Source: an uncultured Acidimicrobiia bacterium | Lineage (GTDB): Bacteria; Actinomycetota; Acidimicrobiia; Spongiisociales; Spongiisociaceae | DNA: 64,000 nucleotides | NCBI GenBank assembly: GCA_958295745.1 | Contig: OY282370.1 | Location: 558,001-622,000, forward strand | Direction: 5' to 3' | Shown here: one piece after another, positions 696 through 9,330 of the stretch | How positions within the stretch are numbered: position 1 is the stretch's first letter | Layout: every line of letters begins with the position of its first letter | The notes under the pieces: model-generated | Seen by the model: the letters and a program-made list of their open reading frames with translations, nothing else | Databases searched by the model: none | Told to the model about the DNA's origin: nothing | Position numbers and translations under genes: made by a program

Positions 696-3485
696 ATGCC
701 CGGATCAACGACAGAAGAACAGATGCGCCACCTGCTCGACGGGGCCGACTTCTATGGGCTGTTCCTCGGGTTGGGTTGGGACAACCCCCCGGACACCGGC
801 CCTGTACAGATCGTCAACACCGGGCTGACAGCCCGCCCGGTGGCTACGAAGAAGGGTGTGGCGGTGTGGCTGGTGGTCTGGGACGCGCCTCCGCACGGTC
901 TAGAGAAGCGGCGGGTATCCCTCGCCCTGCGTAAATACTCCCCGATGGGACGCCTCGTGCTGTTCGACACCCCGGAGGAGGTGCTGTTCTTATGGCCGGA
1001 GCGTACCCAATCAGGCTGGGACCGTCTTGTTGAACATGTGTACCCGAAGGGGAGCGGCGGTGGGAACGCTGTATTGCAACGGCTCGAACGGGTGCGATTC
1101 ACTCTGGCTGACCAGGCGACACTCACAACGCTCAACGTTCTGGATCGGATGCGGCTTTCGTTCAATGTAGAGAAGGTAACTAGATCCTTCTACAGGGAAT
1201 TTCAATCTCACCACAAGGATCTTGTAGAACATATTGAGGGCATTTCGGATGAAAAGGACCGTGATTGGTACGCTTCTGTTCTGCTAAATCGGCTAATGTT
1301 CATCTATTTTATCCAACGCAAAAGATTTTTGGACGGCGACCAGAGCTACCTCCGCAACCAGCTAACTAAGGTTCGCGAATTATTTGGAACCGATCAGCCG
1401 TTTACTTTCTTCCGTGAGTTCTTGCTCCCTTTGTTTCACCAGGGTCTCGGCCACCCGAACCCGCAGTATGACAACTCCACAATAGAATGCCTCGTCGGTA
1501 GTCTACCATATGTGAACGGTGGCATATTCGAGACTCATCAACTTGAAGATGAATACGATATCTACATTGAAGATAAGGCATTTGAGCGTCTCTTCAAGTT
1601 CTTTGACAAGTGGCGATGGCATCTGGACGAGAATCCTACCGGTGCCTCTAATGAGATCAGTCCTCACATTCTCGGGTTTATCTTTGAGCAATCTATTAAC
1701 CAGAAAGAAATAGGAGCTTACTATACCAAACCCGATGTGACTAGGTATATGGTAACATCTTCGATCATACCAGCTATCATAGATAGACTTGTCGCTGCTG
1801 GACTTGAAGATCCGTGTATCCTACTAGCAAGCTCCGGCGCTGACTACATTCATAAAAGTCTTGGCTACGGAGTTCATAAGTCCCTTCCACAAGGGGAGTT
1901 GAATCCAGCAGAAAAGCCTGACTGTTCTCTAGATATCGCCCTGCCTGGGGAACGGTGGTGCGACGTACTATACCGTCGACAATGGTACGACAATCTGGTT
2001 GAAAGGTTGTCGGACAAAGAGATAGAATGGACTATTGATGATTTGGTTACATATAATCTAGATCTAACAACTTTGATGGATGATTATCTGTCGTTACTCA
2101 GTAGCAAAAAGGAAATAGAGACAGCCTTCGAAGTGCTTCGGTCTTTAAATATTTGTGACCCAACAGTAGGATCTGGAGCATTCCTGTTGGCAGCCGTAGA
2201 GTTACTCGATCCTATGTACACCGCCGTAATAGAAACAGCCCGTTACTTTAACAGAGCCTCGGATAATAAGGAAAACGAAATTACTTTCCTGGCTGAAGCC
2301 TCTGTATATACTAGTGAACGGTACTGGATGCTAAAAACAGCCTGCCTCAATAACTTATATGGTGTTGATCTAATAGCCGAAGCTGCTGAGATCACCAAGT
2401 TGAGATTATTTCTGAAACTCGTAGCGCAACTAGACAATATATCGCAGGTAGAGCCATTACCTGATTTGGACTTCAATATCAGAGTTGGTAATTTGCTGGT
2501 CGGATTAGCTGATTCCGAAGATGCCGTCCAACGGTTTGGGGATCGTTTACCACTTTCCGACTTAGACTTAGCTCGCCACGCTGCGGAGATGGCAGCAGAC
2601 GCTTATAAAGATTTTATAAAGGCTCAGTCTACTGACATAGAAAACGGACCGACTCTCTCAACTAAACGTAAACAGCAATTAGAAACGAAGGTCTGTATGG
2701 CGACTCACATAGCTGACTCAGCACTGCACCAGATGCGTAATGAACAGCCTTCTCTAAGTAATTGGCGCAGTACCCATCAACCTTTCCATTGGTTCACTGA
2801 GTTTCCTGCTGTCTGGCAACAGAAGGGATTTGATGTGATCATTGGAAACCCCCCATACATCAATACCAAAGGAAAACGCAAGACCGAAATCAATTACAGC
2901 TGGTATGGGTACTCTACCCAGTATTGTCCCGATATCTACGCGGTTTGTACAGAAAGAGCATCAAGCCTCCTGAACGACCAAGGGCGGTTAGCAATGATCG
3001 TTATGCACTCTTTGTGTTTCAACGATAAATTTAGCACATTGCGCGATTTCTTAATTAAACAATTTCCATCACTGTGGATCTCCTCTTATGCAAATATTCC
3101 TGATGGCTTATTCTCAGGTAGTGCCTCAGTTCGTAATTCGATTATTATTGGTAGCAGAAGAGGAAAAACAGGCCTATTAACAACACGTTGTCGCCGCTGG
3201 ACAGCAATTAGTAGAGAAACTATGTTCAACGGAGTGAAATATATCCATCCTCACAATGCATTATTACATTTACATGGAAAACCAAAATGGCCATTTGTAG
3301 ATGACCTAAATATATCTGATGCATTTTGCAATTTGATTAACAAAAATACGCCCTTGTCCGCAAATCTTGCGCCAAATAAACGCTACATCAACGGACCAGC
3401 TTTGTATTATAAAGATGTTGCTCGATACGTTCTTGGTGTCGCCAACACCCCCCCCCCCGCATTAATAATGACGGAGAAATTATAA
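696..3485 (+). CDS. Type II/IIG-like N6-adenine DNA methyltransferase, prematurely ended at a poly-C tract
   Basis: The protein has the amino-methyltransferase motif order of Eco57I/PglX-type enzymes: an AYYTKPDVTRYM segment, SAM-binding motif I DPTVGSGAF (Asp at about residue 488) and catalytic NPPY (about residue 718). It should methylate adenine N6 in host DNA as the modification half of a defence system. I start it at ATG 696, which has GGAAAG seven bases upstream; the frame is open from 642. The frame ends 27 bases after a run of eleven C residues, giving a nonsense tail ALIMTEKL. The natural C-terminus continues in another frame to 3895. The gene is clearly AT-richer than the flanking chromosome, so it was probably acquired. 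The PLD-helicase gene follows and is likely cotranscribed. Confidence 0.85.
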   Translation: MPGSTTEEQMRHLLDGADFYGLFLGLGWDNPPDTGPVQIVNTGLTARPVATKKGVAVWLVVWDAPPHGLEKRRVSLALRKYSPMGRLVLFDTPEEVLFLWPERTQSGWDRLVEHVYPKGSGGGNAVLQRLERVRFTLADQATLTTLNVLDRMRLSFNVEKVTRSFYREFQSHHKDLVEHIEGISDEKDRDWYASVLLNRLMFIYFIQRKRFLDGDQSYLRNQLTKVRELFGTDQPFTFFREFLLPLFHQGLGHPNPQYDNSTIECLVGSLPYVNGGIFETHQLEDEYDIYIEDKAFERLFKFFDKWRWHLDENPTGASNEISPHILGFIFEQSINQKEIGAYYTKPDVTRYMVTSSIIPAIIDRLVAAGLEDPCILLASSGADYIHKSLGYGVHKSLPQGELNPAEKPDCSLDIALPGERWCDVLYRRQWYDNLVERLSDKEIEWTIDDLVTYNLDLTTLMDDYLSLLSSKKEIETAFEVLRSLNICDPTVGSGAFLLAAVELLDPMYTAVIETARYFNRASDNKENEITFLAEASVYTSERYWMLKTACLNNLYGVDLIAEAAEITKLRLFLKLVAQLDNISQVEPLPDLDFNIRVGNLLVGLADSEDAVQRFGDRLPLSDLDLARHAAEMAADAYKDFIKAQSTDIENGPTLSTKRKQQLETKVCMATHIADSALHQMRNEQPSLSNWRSTHQPFHWFTEFPAVWQQKGFDVIIGNPPYINTKGKRKTEINYSWYGYSTQYCPDIYAVCTERASSLLNDQGRLAMIVMHSLCFNDKFSTLRDFLIKQFPSLWISSYANIPDGLFSGSASVRNSIIIGSRRGKTGLLTTRCRRWTAISRETMFNGVKYIHPHNALLHLHGKPKWPFVDDLNISDAFCNLINKNTPLSANLAPNKRYINGPALYYKDVARYVLGVANTPPPALIMTEKL
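3448..3458 (+). repeat. Homopolymer C11 tract in the methyltransferase gene
   Basis: Eleven consecutive C residues follow GCCAACA. With 11 Cs the frame stops at 3485. With 12 or 9 Cs the upstream frame would read through NTPPPRINND or NTPPRINND into the 3461-3895 frame. Long homopolymers inside methyltransferase genes are classic slipped-strand phase-variation sites. A sequencing or assembly miscount gives the same picture. Confidence 0.9.
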
Positions 3486-3895
3486 GTTTCGCGTATGAAA
3501 GAACACTTTTCTTTAGCACGACAGAACACAGAGATCTAGCACAATTAATATTGTCGGGCCTTTGGGGTTATATATGGTGGTTAATTTATGGTGATGAATT
3601 CTCTGTTATTAAAAGAGTAGTAATCTCATTTCCAGCCGGAATAACTGATCTAGAGATTTCACCCCAAGCTCCTAAATTATTTGATCTAGCAACTGCACTC
3701 CAAAAGGAGTTGCCAAAACACCTCAAATGGAAGGCCAATGCTGGACTGAAAGTCGGACGATATGACTTACGTGAATGTCGCCATATAACTGATGAGGCAG
3801 ATTGGCTACTCGCCGAGGCATGGGGACTAACTGAAGAACAGTTCTACGCTGCCGGTAATCTGAGAGACCGGATGACGTTTGGACGGAAGGACTAG
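3449..3895 (+). pseudogene. Out-of-frame C-terminal part of the methyltransferase
   Basis: This frame is open from the poly-C tract to a TAG at 3893-3895. It encodes RINNDGEIISFAYERTLFFS and then a segment including GLWGYIWWLIYGDEF and EADWLLAEAWGLTEEQF. Type IIG/PglX-like methyltransferases end in this kind of target-recognition and C-terminal helical region. A TTG at 3551 could in principle start a separate 114-residue protein. However, there is no good ribosome binding site, and the reading sense begins immediately after the C run, so this is best read as the continuation of the 696 gene. It becomes part of a roughly 1,065-residue enzyme when the tract has 12 or 9 Cs. Confidence 0.8.
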
Positions 3896-3901
3896 TAATC
3901 T

Positions 3902-6900
3902 ATGCCGAGAATTCTCGATAACATGTCTGCCTGGCTGGGGGAGGCCCTGAAGAGATCGCTTCGTGAGAACACCTTCTCTTTCGACGCAGCGGTCGGTTAC
4001 TTCAACTTGAGGGGTTGGGGGCTTATAGCCAATCAGGTGGACACCCTGCCCGGCAGAGATGGCAGTCCGAAGGTTCGCCTGCTAGTGGGGATGACAGAGC
4101 ACCCTCACGACGAGATGCGCCGCCTGCAGCGTCTCCGTGCACTCCCCACGATGGACCCAGAGACCGCCTCTAAGAACTCGGAGAAGGCATTTGCAGAGAT
4201 GCGCAACCAGTTGGAAGTCGGCCTGCCCACCGAAGCCAACGAGAAGACGCTGCAGCAGTTGCGCTCCCAGATCGATTCCGGCGAGGTAGAGGTGCGCCTG
4301 TTCTTGGCCCACCGTCTCCATGCCAAGCTGTTCCTCTGCCACAAGAGCAGTGTTGACAACCCGCGCACCGGCTATGTCGGTTCGTCGAACCTCACCCGGG
4401 CTGGGCTGTCCGAACAGGGTGAGCTGAACGTCGATGTGACCGACCACGATTCCACCGCGAAGCTCGCCGCGTGGTTCGACGAGATGTGGACCCATCATCT
4501 CACGCTGCCAGCGAACATCGAATTGGTAGAGCTACTCGATAAATCATGGGCCTCGAAACACGCTTTGCATCCCTACCTGGTGTACCTGAAGATGGCCTGG
4601 CATCTGTCAAAGGAGGCCCGGGATGGCCTCATAGAGTACGGACTACCCCTGTCCATGTCGAACAAGTTGCTCGATTTTCAGACCGCCGCGGTGAACATCG
4701 CCGCCCGGATAGTCCACCAGCGCGGCGGGGTCATCGTCGGAGATGTGGTCGGCTTAGGCAAGACTCTGATCGCCACCGCCATCGCCCGTCTGCTCCAAGA
4801 GGAGCACGGTACCGACACGCTCATCATATGCCCGAAGAACCTGGTAACCATGTGGGAACAACACATGGATGAGTACGACATCCGGGGTCGGGTGGTGCCG
4901 CTTTCGATGGTACCCCGTGGAGCATTGACAGAGCTGCGGCGATACCGGCTGATCGTGGTGGATGAATCCCACAATCTCCGCAATCGGAAGAGCAAAAGCT
5001 GGCAGGCCCTGCGGACCTACATCGCCGACAACGACTCGAAGGTGGTGCTGCTGTCGGCCACCCCGTACAACAAGGACGTGTCCGACATCGATGCCCAGAT
5101 GAGCCTTTTCATAGGCGACGATATAGATCTCGGCATCCGCCCAGAACGGGCTATCGCCGCAATGGGAGAAGCTGAGTTCGCGCTGAAATGTGAAGGCCGT
5201 ATGTCCACCATCGCCGCCTTCCGAAGAGGCGAACACCGGGATGATTGGCAGGAGCTGCTGTCGCAGTTCATGGTTCGCCGCACCCGCCGCTTCATCCAGG
5301 ACAACTACGCCATCAAGGACAGCCAAGGCCGTCAGTATCTGCTGTTCGAGAACGGCGGCAAGTTCTACTTCCCGGAACGGATCGCGAATCCGGTCGAGCG
5401 GGACTTTTCGCGCGATGACCCGGCCCGCGAGATGATCGCCCAGTCCACCCTCGACTCGGTGGCCGCCCTGCGCCTTCCTCGGTACAGGATCGGAGAACAC
5501 CTAACAGATGACACCGCTCTCAACGAAGAAGAACAAGAACTGCTGGACGACCTCAACAGGTCGGCCCGCGGCAACCTAATGGGGTTCACAAGGGTGATGC
5601 TCTTCAAGCGGCTGTCCTCTTCGGGACCTGCGTTCCTCGCCACCCTCAGACGACACGCCCTGCGAAACCTGATAGCCACCTACGCGATAGACAACGGGCT
5701 GCCCGTCCCGATCGGATCGGTGGACAAGTCACTGTGGTACACCGAAACCGACCAGGACACCGGCGACCTGTTCGAGGAAGGCGGACTAGAAGATGGCGGC
5801 CCTCTGGATAATTCCGTCCCGGCGGCGGCTTACCACGAACTGCGCCAAGCCGGTCGCCGCAACGTGCGCTGGCTGAGATCGGAGCTGCTCAAACCCCAGT
5901 TCTCCGACGACCTCGGCCACGACACCGCCGTCATCCGCGACCTTCTCGACCGGTTCGGACAGTGGAATCCTGACAAGGACGGCAAACTCGACCAGCTCGC
6001 AGACATCATCACCAAACATTCCCCCGAGAAGATCATCGTGTTCACCGAATACGCCGACACCGCCTTCTACATCGCCGCGGAACTCAGTCGCCGCGGTGTG
6101 GACGGTGTGGAAGCGGTCACCGGGTCATCGGACGACCCGCTAGCGCTGGCCTGTCGCTTCTCGCCCGTCTCCAACAACTTTGCCCCGCCGGATCGAAAAC
6201 TGATGGTGCTGGTATCGACCGACGTGCTATCGGAGGGCCAGAACCTCCAAGACGCCCACATCGTGGTCAACTACGACCTGCCGTGGGCCATCGTCAAACT
6301 CGTCCAGCGGGCCGGAAGGGTGGACCGGATCGGCCAGCAATCCGAACAGGTGCGCATCTACTCACTGCTCCCGGCAGGAAAGATCGAGGAGGAGATAGAT
6401 CTGAGGGGCCGCATCAGAGAAAGGCTCAGGGACAACGCGCAGCTGCTCGGCTCCGACGAGAAGTTCTTCGGCGACCCGAGCGAACAGGCCATGATCGCCG
6501 GCTTGTTCGACGAACACTCCGAATACCAGCTGGCGGACGACGGCGGAGACGTAGACCCCGTGTCGATGGCGTATGAAATATGGCGTTCGGCGGCCGCCGA
6601 CCATCCCGATCTCGCGGCCCAGGTGGAAAACCTGCCCGACGTTGTCTACTCCACTCTGGACAACAAGGCCGACAACCGGCCGTCCGCCGGGGTGCTGGTC
6701 CACTCCAAGACGGTTACGGGATCCGACGCGTTCGCGTTCGTCTCCGCCGCCGGGCGAGGGGAACGGATCACCCCCCAGAGAGCCCTGACAATGGCGGCAT
6801 GTGAACCGGATGAAGCCCCCGCCACCCGTCTGCCCGAACACCACGATCTGGTGGCGGCGGCCTTCGCGGGCCCGCTCACCGCCCCTCCCGAACGCCCAGG

Positions 6901-7243
6901 CGAGACTCCGACCGGCGTCCGAGGGCGGGTCTGGAACCGGCTGGAACCCCGCAGGGATTCCTTAACAGACAACCTGCTGTTCAGCCGAGATGACCTGGAA
7001 GCCGCCTTGAACGACCTAGCGTCATACTCGTTGATGCAGCCAGCCACCGAGAGGCTCGCAAAGGCTTTGAGCCAACGGAGCAACGAAGACTTGGCCGCCC
7101 TGCTGGTCAACCTCCACCAAGACGGACGGCTATGCGAGTACCCCGACACCTCCGACCGAGAAGGCCGACCCGAACCAAGGGTCATCTGCTCGATGGGATT
7201 CACCACAGCCCCACCTAACACGCCCACCTCTGTTCAGGAATAG
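3902..7243 (+). CDS. PLD-family nuclease fused to SNF2-type helicase
   Basis: The N-terminal domain carries one phospholipase-D-type HxK motif (LHAKLFL, about residues 138-145) followed by GSSNLTRAG, as in PLD nucleases of restriction systems. A superfamily 2 SNF2/RapA-like helicase follows: Walker A GDVVGLGKT (about 280), DESHNLRN (about 352), LLSATPYN (about 384) and the C-terminal lobe QRAGRVDRIGQQ (about 803). The start lies six bases after the methyltransferase stop, which implies translational coupling. The protein probably translocates along DNA and cuts with its PLD domain when DNA lacks the partner's methylation. The arrangement resembles the split parts of DISARM (DrmD helicase, DrmC PLD, DrmMI methylase) or Hma, but no DrmA/DrmB genes are present. 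The exact system type is unassigned. GC is higher than in the methyltransferase gene. Confidence 0.85.
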   Translation: MPRILDNMSAWLGEALKRSLRENTFSFDAAVGYFNLRGWGLIANQVDTLPGRDGSPKVRLLVGMTEHPHDEMRRLQRLRALPTMDPETASKNSEKAFAEMRNQLEVGLPTEANEKTLQQLRSQIDSGEVEVRLFLAHRLHAKLFLCHKSSVDNPRTGYVGSSNLTRAGLSEQGELNVDVTDHDSTAKLAAWFDEMWTHHLTLPANIELVELLDKSWASKHALHPYLVYLKMAWHLSKEARDGLIEYGLPLSMSNKLLDFQTAAVNIAARIVHQRGGVIVGDVVGLGKTLIATAIARLLQEEHGTDTLIICPKNLVTMWEQHMDEYDIRGRVVPLSMVPRGALTELRRYRLIVVDESHNLRNRKSKSWQALRTYIADNDSKVVLLSATPYNKDVSDIDAQMSLFIGDDIDLGIRPERAIAAMGEAEFALKCEGRMSTIAAFRRGEHRDDWQELLSQFMVRRTRRFIQDNYAIKDSQGRQYLLFENGGKFYFPERIANPVERDFSRDDPAREMIAQSTLDSVAALRLPRYRIGEHLTDDTALNEEEQELLDDLNRSARGNLMGFTRVMLFKRLSSSGPAFLATLRRHALRNLIATYAIDNGLPVPIGSVDKSLWYTETDQDTGDLFEEGGLEDGGPLDNSVPAAAYHELRQAGRRNVRWLRSELLKPQFSDDLGHDTAVIRDLLDRFGQWNPDKDGKLDQLADIITKHSPEKIIVFTEYADTAFYIAAELSRRGVDGVEAVTGSSDDPLALACRFSPVSNNFAPPDRKLMVLVSTDVLSEGQNLQDAHIVVNYDLPWAIVKLVQRAGRVDRIGQQSEQVRIYSLLPAGKIEEEIDLRGRIRERLRDNAQLLGSDEKFFGDPSEQAMIAGLFDEHSEYQLADDGGDVDPVSMAYEIWRSAAADHPDLAAQVENLPDVVYSTLDNKADNRPSAGVLVHSKTVTGSDAFAFVSAAGRGERITPQRALTMAACEPDEAPATRLPEHHDLVAAAFAGPLTAPPERPGETPTGVRGRVWNRLEPRRDSLTDNLLFSRDDLEAALNDLASYSLMQPATERLAKALSQRSNEDLAALLVNLHQDGRLCEYPDTSDREGRPEPRVICSMGFTTAPPNTPTSVQE

Positions 7244-7482: not shown

Positions 7483-8271
7483 TTAGAAAAAAGGCTGGTG
7501 ATCAGGAAAATCTACCCTACCTAGAGCCTGCCTACTGAGATGTTCCCCGAGTTCCGTGGCTTCTGCTCTGCGCCGACTAACAATCTTGCCTGCTTGTTCC
7601 CGTGTGATCCACGGTTTAGTAAAATCATTCTCCCATTGTCTAACTGATGGTACTGATGAATTTACTTTGCAGAGAAAGTCATGCCAACGGTGAAATATCT
7701 CATACAATTTATCAGCTGCGCTATGTAGGCTACCCATAGCCAAACCGAATTTTTGTCGATCTTTATCAAGATGAGCAACATATTTATTCGCATATGGTCT
7801 CACTTTATCAGACATTTTATCTAGTTCCTGTATATCCTGATAGACTATCTTCGGATCAAGATGGACTCCTTCATAGGAGATATTGTCAAAAGCTCTAAGA
7901 TACCGTTTATACATATCATAATGGTACTCTGTATTTATACTGTCTGGATACCTACTAATCCACCATTCACGAGTCAAAATATGGGCTTCGTCCTTTATAT
8001 TATTCAAAAGTAAATATAGAGACCTAGTCCGTTTATTTTTGTCACACATACTACGCACAACCATTGCCAAAGATCTTAGATAATTTTCGTTAACCCATTC
8101 GACAAAAAAGCTACTATCAAGCTGGGCAAAACCAACGATATCATTCCAACTTTCAAAGGCTCTACGCTTGAACCATATTCCACGAACTTGTTCAGCAATA
8201 TCACCTTGTATCCAATCACGCCAATAGGCTATCCTCACGGAGATATCTTTAGTTTCTCCTTTGTCGCTCAT
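7483..8271 (-). CDS. AbiU2-like HEPN-domain protein (tentative)
   Basis: This is a 262-residue, all-helical-looking soluble protein with markedly low GC. Residues 158-169 read RPYANKYVAHLD, like the basic-residue/His segment near the C-terminal helix of AbiU2-type HEPN proteins (toxin-like RNases or their relatives). The segment VVRSMCDKNKRTRSLYLLL (about 71-89) also resembles that group. I prefer ATG 8271 over 8310 because AAAGGA lies six bases upstream of it. The gene sits between a decayed and an intact copy of the MNT-HEPN 3' end, so it may be cargo inserted at this site. The HEPN assignment rests on short motifs only. Confidence 0.5.
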   Translation of the reverse strand: MSDKGETKDISVRIAYWRDWIQGDIAEQVRGIWFKRRAFESWNDIVGFAQLDSSFFVEWVNENYLRSLAMVVRSMCDKNKRTRSLYLLLNNIKDEAHILTREWWISRYPDSINTEYHYDMYKRYLRAFDNISYEGVHLDPKIVYQDIQELDKMSDKVRPYANKYVAHLDKDRQKFGLAMGSLHSAADKLYEIFHRWHDFLCKVNSSVPSVRQWENDFTKPWITREQAGKIVSRRRAEATELGEHLSRQALGRVDFPDHQPFF

Positions 8272-8382
8272 AACAATCCTTTTTCTTCCATTGATCTGAC
8301 AATATAGCAATGAAGTAGGTATAATAATACCATACTGGGAATATTAGTATCCTGAGTAGCACCAGGCGCGGTTACTTACCAC

Positions 8383-9330
8383 TTAACCTGCGAGCGGTTG
8401 GCCGGTCAGTAGGTCGTAACCCGCCACCCGATTCTCCAGTGCTTCCACCATGTCGAGCACCCGGCGCGCGTCGGGTACCTCGCCGCTGAACTGGCGGGCG
8501 GTGTAGGCCGCTACCGCACACCCCGCCCTCGTCAATTCCTCGACCATCTCCGGCGTGGCCGCATCGTCTACCCATCCCTCGTTCCAGTAGCGGGATTCCA
8601 TGTGCCAACGGGTGATCTCGTCTGCCGTCTCCTCAGACAGTCGAGAACGCACAGCCCGGCGATGGGGTTCGGCCATCTCGGCGCAGAGCTCGTTGATGTC
8701 ATGCCCCCAAGCCAGGCTTTCCCGGTCGGCGCCGAGATGGATCAGCGCCTTCAATGCAGCCTCCACGGTGTACTGGACGTGGGCGCACGCCCACCCGAAC
8801 CGGACAGCCGCCGCCAAGAAAGCAAAATCCTCATCGCCTTTCTGCTGTTCCAACTGCTCCTCGCGATCAGGCAGCAATCTCCCGCGGAGGGACACCAGCC
8901 CGCGCAGTGTTTCGTGAAGCCTTGTCAATGCCACTTCGTAGTCGCTGATAGGCATGACCATCTCCTTACCCCAGTTCACTTTGCCGGTGCCGCGGTCAAC
9001 CAGTACAACACCCTCCCTGGCGGCCCTGCTCTCGAACGAGGTGCGCACCTGCTCGGTGCGCACCTTCCATTCGGGGCGGTCGGTGACGAACACCTCAACA
9101 GGATGCCCGGCCGCTGCGCTCGCCAGCGAAGACAGCTCCTTCACCCGCTCAGAGCGGGTCCGGTAATCCAGGTCGTCATAGATCGCAGCGAGATCGATGT
9201 CGCTGCGTTCTGTGGCGTCGCCGCGGGCCACCGAGCCGAACAACACCACCCTGCTCACACCAACATCCGCCAGCGCCGCGGCGGCCCGTTCGGCATCCCC
9301 CCGGCGCGGCGGCGCCGTTCTTACAGGCAT
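8383..9330 (-). CDS. Nucleotidyltransferase-HEPN fusion (MNT-HEPN) protein
   Basis: Residues 1-110 are a minimal nucleotidyltransferase: VVLFGSVARGD followed by SDIDLAAI, which supplies the GS and DxD metal-binding residues. Residues about 165-260 form a HEPN domain, including WACAHVQYTVEAALKALIHLG and MESRYWNEG. In two-gene MNT/HEPN systems the MNT enzyme AMPylates and silences the HEPN RNase; here both are joined in one 315-residue chain. The fusion may be a self-controlled toxin-antitoxin unit or a substrate-modifying enzyme (kanamycin nucleotidyltransferase-like). Fragments of its 3' end (7257-7411) and 5' leader (13072-13150) occur elsewhere in the island. Unlike its AT-rich neighbours it has chromosomal GC. 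Confidence 0.8.
   Translation of the reverse strand: MPVRTAPPRRGDAERAAAALADVGVSRVVLFGSVARGDATERSDIDLAAIYDDLDYRTRSERVKELSSLASAAAGHPVEVFVTDRPEWKVRTEQVRTSFESRAAREGVVLVDRGTGKVNWGKEMVMPISDYEVALTRLHETLRGLVSLRGRLLPDREEQLEQQKGDEDFAFLAAAVRFGWACAHVQYTVEAALKALIHLGADRESLAWGHDINELCAEMAEPHRRAVRSRLSEETADEITRWHMESRYWNEGWVDDAATPEMVEELTRAGCAVAAYTARQFSGEVPDARRVLDMVEALENRVAGYDLLTGQPLAG

Follow-up and report, generated by a model that had tools for sequence, protein, structure and literature searches.

The 64,000-nucleotide stretch analysed here (the window) belongs to the genome of an uncultured Acidimicrobiia bacterium (G000 in our set) and carries near its beginning a putative two-gene defence module: a gene for an N6-adenine DNA methyltransferase, whose reading frame is broken at a run of eleven Cs (C11), and a gene for a phospholipase D (PLD)-type nuclease fused to an SNF2 helicase (Table 1). 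The upstream methyltransferase frame starts at ATG 696 or ATG 723 and ends with the TAA at 3483-3485. The next frame is open over 3452-3892, as it also is before the tract, and has its stop at 3893-3895; the ATG of the helicase lies 6 bases past that stop, and in relatives too the helicase adjoins the methyltransferase. The original prediction, made from the letters of the window, had read C11 as a probable phase-variable switch, with frames that 9 or 12 Cs would join and with the methylase off while the PLD-helicase is intact in the state shown. Its coordinates for the tract, the stop and the continuing frame proved exact, both joining lengths agree with our frame reading, and the gene is indeed split at C11 next to an open helicase frame.

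Table 1. The methyltransferase-helicase module, in positions of the window
Feature	Position	Strand	Evidence or remark
N6-adenine DNA methyltransferase, N-terminal part and catalytic core	696..3485	+	Pfam Eco57I 1.3e-29; PADLOC PDLC03628 7.6e-155
C11 tract, proposed slipped-strand switch	3448..3458	+	on codons of a PP/PPP motif
Methyltransferase C-terminal end, rest of the target-recognition region, next frame	3452..3895	+	PADLOC PDLC03628; G022 homologue
PLD(HKD)-type nuclease fused to SNF2 helicase, intact	3902..7243	+	Pfam PLDc_2, RE_NgoFVII, SNF2-rel_dom, Helicase_C

The two halves match the PADLOC model PDLC03628 (1100 positions) in the same order, the upstream half over positions 11-886 and the downstream half over 964-1087, the match of the downstream half alone being weak (E 1.5e-4). 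In an intact homologue (G022, locus L019) the gene is a single frame of 1062 residues, without a repeat and with the helicase directly after it, and the two window frames align to its residues 1-918 (53% identity) and 917-1062 (55% identity). The PP/PPP motif under C11 is also found in relatives without a tract. Given this alignment and the retention of the motif, we take the fragment past the tract to be the true end of the protein; relatives run through the junction, rather than lacking a homopolymer and ending where the window frame does at 3485. The sequences DPTxGSGAF and NPPY, which we take to be motif I and motif IV of such enzymes, fall on invariant columns of the alignment around D490-F498 and N722-Y725.

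C11 is the sole run of at least 8 identical bases of any kind in the 64-kb window, where the methyltransferase gene has 46% GC and the window 64%, and shuffles of the gene itself gave a C/G run of at least 11 in 0 of 2000 cases. Nevertheless, we rejected local rarity as proof, since dinucleotide shuffles of the whole window contain on average 0.42 such runs and 27 of them occur on the genome's main contig. As the tract alone is not rare, its meaning has to come from relatives.

The gene was sought in four overlapping sets of 138, 395, 397 and 298 genomes (E limit 1e-30 for the first, 1e-80 for the other three) and found in 5, 11, 17 and 13 of them, respectively. To these we added a contig scan, of which the best 80 of 299 confirmed stretches were used as loci. 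Eleven of the 80 fell in the class set (Acidimicrobiia), nine of them already found and counted once and two new (L085 and L087), and the remaining 69 constitute the outside set. The class set holds 28 records that represent 26 loci, G352 and G274 each being split over two contigs; from their bin names, we presume that the loci derive from sponge microbiomes.

A repeat was considered long if it had at least 9 identical bases, 6 dinucleotides, 5 trinucleotides or 4 tetra- or pentanucleotides. By this definition 18 of the 26 class loci bear a long simple repeat, either within the methyltransferase or at a contig end that cuts the gene, where G352 and G464, with a repeat at the contig end beside a gene part, were scored as repeat-bearing. 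The mono- and dinucleotide repeats are C11, G9, G10, G13, C10, C13, (GA)8, (TG)15, (TC)9 and (TC)12, and the longer units are (CCAG)14, (GGAC)16, (TCGG)9(ACGG)5, (TCAG)13 and (GCCCA)5. They fall, by our count, into 14 combinations of unit and site: near residue 400 we observed G, C, TC, CCAG, GGAC, TCGG/ACGG, TCAG and GCCCA repeats, near 525 GA, TG and G, near 222 a G run (G538), near 582 a C run and near 916 the C run of the window.

In 12 of the 15 readable loci the gene is out of frame at the repeat (hereafter OFF), namely in the window, G026a, G311, G624b, G605, G526, G314, G343, G634, G480, L085 and L087, and it is in frame in the other three (G026b, G538 and G444); the frame is unreadable in G496 (a gap of Ns) and in G352 and G464, which are cut by contig ends. 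Three loci (the window, G634 and G480) were counted as OFF because the frame changes directly past the tract, although the automated label, given by a first aligned piece that extends across the tract, had been in-frame. The observed 12:3 is near the 2:1 expected of random repeat lengths.

In contrast, no long repeat was found in 22 regions (71 kb) of the adjacent helicases of the class set, nor inside any of the 69 outside methyltransferases, the lone flagged tract there (T9 in L105) lying past the gene end. Long repeats are over-represented in the class methyltransferases relative to the outside homologues (Fisher p 1.4e-13 for 18/26 vs 0/69) and to the neighbouring helicases (p 3.1e-7 vs 0/22), where these values treat related loci as independent. 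Since short runs are common outside the class at looser thresholds (at least 7 identical bases: 33 of the 69 methyltransferase loci and 21 helicase loci; at least 8: 8 and 3, respectively), the contrast is limited to long repeats.

Comparison at the sequence level thus strongly supports the phase-variable switch that the original prediction had proposed, 18 of 26 class loci having a long repeat and 12 of 15 readable ones being out of frame at it. We consider it very probable that the two genes form a restriction-modification-like defence module in which the methyltransferase is a contingency gene, with an ON/OFF switch that works by slipped-strand mispairing. Replication slippage would add bases to C11 or remove them: with 11 Cs translation should end at 3485, and with 9 or 12 Cs the full enzyme would be made.

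A predicted structure of the intact homologue suggests what the OFF state would cost the protein. The model has a predicted local distance difference test score (pLDDT) of 79.4 and a predicted template modelling score (pTM) of 0.49, and because of the latter we used only its local features. Its residues 601-1047 superpose on M.BseCI (Z 17.7, 296 residues, root-mean-square deviation (rmsd) 3.9), and the top-scoring solved structures in a profile search were PglX/BrxX; whole-length superpositions on PglX are poor (rmsd >20). In the model, residues around 400, 525-532 and 914-918, where the main repeats lie, are in coil, some of them at helix ends, which speaks for the proposed switch, and residue 222, the site of the G538 repeat, is inside a helix. 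A stop at about residue 918 removes the last ~145 residues, most of which are modelled with high confidence, and a protein shortened in this way probably has no functional recognition domain.

When the gene is OFF, the methyltransferase would lose the C-terminal end of its recognition domain and presumably be inactive. The original prediction had pointed out that an intact PLD-helicase beside a silent methylase would be dangerous, unless the helicase were also controlled through translation coupled to the gene before it. The PLD-helicase is, however, probably idle without the methyltransferase, because the recognition domain sits in the latter; if it needs the methyltransferase for target recognition, switching OFF would silence the module without killing the cell. 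There are other systems in which the modification subunit finds the target. A passage on type I BREX (bacteriophage exclusion) likewise has both defence and methylation depend on site binding by BrxX (PMC11842806). If tract lengths do switch within the population, the benefit would be bet-hedging of phage defence.

The proposed safeguard, in which an OFF methyltransferase silences both genes by polarity, is the best placed of the alternatives and still rather doubtful. It fits loci with the helicase directly after the methyltransferase: the spacing is 6 bases in the window, and in 14 loci examined, the window included, the helicase starts 2-6 bases after the methyltransferase stop. It could not operate in five of the 12 OFF loci, in all of which the helicase is open. 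In four of these (G605, G314, G343 and L085 (APA7)) about 1.2-1.4 kb lies between the genes, and in the fifth, G480, with a C13 tract, the helicase stands upstream of the methyltransferase; G480 is also an outlying row of our tree. As the arrangement is missing in 5 of 12 OFF loci, we rejected coupled translation as the sole general safeguard, which leaves this part of the original prediction standing for loci with directly adjoining genes and not in general. Translation coupling may add to safety in the window, and by analogy with the systems above a nuclease that depends on the recognition domain of the methyltransferase seems likelier than a safeguard by coupling throughout.

Several observations weigh against a switch, and we give them here and in the next two paragraphs, with the alternatives that some of them favour. 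Eight of the 26 class loci have no repeat; among these G022 is intact, and G624a, G194, G647 and G274 are partial or split. Near residue 916, where the window has its tract, none of the relatives carries a repeat. The in-frame state of G026b could be read only as far as residue 541, where its contig ends, and there are additional breaks elsewhere in G538 and G624b. Finally, the source genus is represented by one genome (G000), and lengths of the tract could be compared between relatives only, so that switching is suggested by comparison among species rather than within one.

An error of sequencing or assembly, with a true tract of 9 or 12 Cs and an intact gene in the strain, is unlikely, though of some weight for the window itself. 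Homopolymers of eleven bases are hard to call, and C11 could be such an error; the genome is a draft of nine contigs, and the frame is otherwise open on both sides of the tract. This would, however, account for one genome only, while other assemblies break at di- and tetranucleotide repeats and at other sites, and the tract would be slippage-prone even at 12 Cs. Moreover, among the 69 outside loci 17 (or 16 if IRC1_bin_16 is left out) belong to series of metagenome-assembled genomes (MAGs) whose names resemble those of the class loci. None of them carries a repeat inside the gene, so the repeats are not a product of assembly methods common to both sets.

Much less probable is that the frameshift is one step in the loss of a dying methyltransferase gene. 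In its favour, G033 has lost one base without a repeat, G448 has an in-frame TAG, G106 carries an inversion, G538 has a large gap and G624b has a second break near residue 890. In addition, for the pair jk18 (L087) and G624b, both OFF, the ratio of nonsynonymous to synonymous substitution rates (dN/dS) is 0.403 beyond the repeat vs 0.124 before it, with 82% and 96% identity, respectively, a divergence that makes for weaker evidence of constraint past the repeat. Against gene death, the 12 OFF loci lose their frame at the repeat, and within the covered sequence only G624b has a second break. All 17 helicases that we checked have frames that stay open almost up to the expected end. For the two OFF loci G314 and G343, the sequence past the repeat is free of stops and has a dN of 0.053, a dS of 0.408 and a dN/dS of 0.131; the ratio is 0.095 for the part ahead of the repeat and 0.108 for the helicase. 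Thus the part past the repeat appears to stay under purifying selection, with dN/dS of 0.13 in one OFF/OFF pair and 0.40 in another. In the pair G022/G033 the later part is 68% identical vs 94% for the earlier part (ratio 0.253), and the higher divergence of later parts would fit exchange or diversification of the recognition domain.

Slippage of RNA polymerase or of the ribosome on the tract, giving a constant low amount of full-length protein with no genetic switch, is the least probable explanation: transcriptional slippage can arise at long homopolymers and the gene appears to be under selection while out of frame, but the (TG)15, (TC)12 and 56-64-base tetranucleotide arrays that relatives have at other positions fit replication slippage better than a fixed recoding site.

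The proposed slipped-strand switch may have arisen repeatedly. A tree built from C-terminal parts unites 23 class rows in one supported group (100/99), outside which G480 and G444 fall; without these two, a repeat is present in 16 of 24 loci and the gene is OFF in 11 of 13 readable ones. The window stands beside G022, G033, G106 and G026a (95/93), of which G022 and G033 have no repeat, G106 has an inversion and G026a has (GA)8 near residue 525. Since these neighbours have no repeat near residue 916, the C11 site of the window is most simply an independent gain. Repeats also turn over at shared sites: (GGAC)16 in jk18 (L087) and (CCAG)14 in G624b occupy the same site in otherwise closely similar sequence, and TC12 in G314 stands opposite TC9 in G343.

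We therefore lean towards regarding the module as a hotspot at which phase switches evolved repeatedly and independently within one class, given the 14 unit/site combinations, the replacement between GGAC16 and CCAG14 and perhaps the G106 inversion, all of them in the methyltransferase and none seen in the nuclease. If this is true, the class would provide a natural replicate experiment, in which random silencing of the defence itself was selected. The best-known methyltransferases with phase variation come from pathogens and from the Streptomyces phage growth limitation (Pgl) system, and so many kinds of repeat in an environmental class would allow one to ask, through independent gains, whether switching is favoured or merely tolerated. 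As MAG-derived genomes usually have public reads, mixtures of tract lengths are directly measurable, and the loci with a distant or upstream helicase bear on the question of whether the PLD nuclease can act without the methyltransferase.

Two of the class loci have features of their own. In G106 (L023:10471-11484) a middle segment of the methyltransferase (approximately residues 199-530) is inverted between the arms of an imperfect inverted repeat (about 19 bases, as judged by eye), which may reflect either an invertible switch or a chimeric assembly. In G026b (L022:7129-7240) a G11 tract lies 10 bases upstream of a tRNA-Thr gene (7150-7225) and the methyltransferase aligns from 7237, which suggests that this locus was inserted at a tRNA gene.

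Among known systems, a close parallel in principle is Pgl (type 2 BREX) of Streptomyces coelicolor, in which phase variation has been attributed to length changes of a G tract in pglX, according to the passage of PMC4365076 that treats it. There too an actinobacterial defence methyltransferase is switched by a homopolymer tract; in contrast, the partner here is a PLD-SNF2 helicase, and repeats of many units and sites are found across one class. PglZ (PF08665) has no match in the whole source genome (two of 14 control genomes matched), and the window methyltransferase scores far below the cut-offs of the BREX PglX models. Type III mod genes (modA, modS), in which simple repeats inside the gene switch the methyltransferase ON and OFF (passages of PMC8125046 and PMC3498834), are described as the best-known class in the former. 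Unlike in these, no match to type III Mod/Res was found, the methyltransferase being Eco57I/BrxX-like with a BseCI-like fold and the effector combining PLD and SNF2.

The type-2 BREX-related (BR) systems share with the window module an HKD-SNF2 fusion and an N6 methyltransferase, the HKD nuclease standing ahead of the Swi2/Snf2 helicase, and the part of PMC12839542 that describes them adds a DUF499 ATPase and DUF3780. DUF499 is not in the window (C1 0.558-0.622 Mb), the three matches in the genome being at C1 0.861, 1.562 and 2.806 Mb, and DUF3780 had no match in the ten proteins scanned, no genome-wide search having been made. Class 1 DISARM (defence island system associated with restriction-modification) likewise combines an SNF2 helicase with an N6 methyltransferase, and there are weak cross-matches to the DrmD and DrmMI models, where DrmD scored 141 bits vs a curated cut-off of 610. 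DrmA, DrmB and DrmC had no match in six scanned neighbours, a scan covering only some open reading frames (ORFs) of the window, and PF09369 matches in the genome only at C1 1.79 and 2.48 Mb. As the defining partners were not found in the locus, we rejected filing it as DISARM, BREX or BREX-related. What we propose is thus a known principle of switching in a defence module of another kind, with an unusually large variety of repeats. In literature passages that name both phase variation and Acidimicrobiia we found no report of phase variation in this class, which is not proof of absence.

As to gene order, all class loci in which both genes were seen are methyltransferase-first except G480, whereas the outside loci are helicase-first in 60 of 69 cases, no same-strand helicase having been found in the other nine. 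We rejected the possibility that repeats require the methyltransferase-first order: G480 is helicase-first and yet has C13 and is OFF, so that order is a correlate at most. A distance of about 1.2-2.8 kb separates the two genes in G605, G314, G343, G496, G352, L085 and G194; in G496 and G352 an ORF of the other strand lies in this interval, and its product looks similar, by eye, to the DUF4143/AAA_14 protein of L031. In a Candidatus Dadabacteria locus (L098:4157-4208) it is the helicase, not the methyltransferase, that shifts frame near a C9 run, and the methyltransferase there has one in-frame stop. Beside the module, the window encodes an AbiU2-type HEPN protein and a nucleotidyltransferase-HEPN protein (7483-8310 and 8383-9330, minus strand).

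Long tracts are also found near other genes of the source genome. A type ISP-like restriction gene (L184:8833-13192, minus strand; G000:C1 253832-258191) is present as two overlapping ORFs of 543 and 926 aa, the latter with ISP coupler, N6 methyltransferase and ISP specificity domains; it has a C12 inside its C-terminal end and C11 and C10 just past the stop, and, judged from its sequence, is a candidate for a second phase-variable restriction system. Another C11, at L031:2474-2484 (G000:C1:860773-860783), lies about 150 bases before a DUF499 match (C1:860937, open frame of 1027 aa), and this DUF499-family gene may carry the tract at its 5' end; DUF499 is the core ATPase of BREX-related systems in the passage of PMC12839542 cited above. 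C/G tracts of 11-12 bases at L042, L034:5248-7950 and L043:2421-4031 are located about 14-133 bases upstream of, or near, called starts of genes for large surface-type proteins with SLH domains (and FG-GAP, LRR or RCC1 repeats), which suggests that surface genes are contingency loci too. In L027:1014-2627 (minus strand) and L037:2124-4031 each ORF contains an 11-base C/G tract and matches the PADLOC candidate PDC-M33A (1.7e-52 and 1e-9, respectively). On the plus strand of the main contig (G000:C1) the C/G runs of at least 11 bases are all C runs before 1.26 Mb (16 runs) and all G runs after 1.49 Mb (11 runs), a polarity that follows the sign of the mean GC skew (-0.054 and +0.121, respectively), as measured in the regions around the tracts. 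Long G tracts in this genome thus have a strong replichore polarity.

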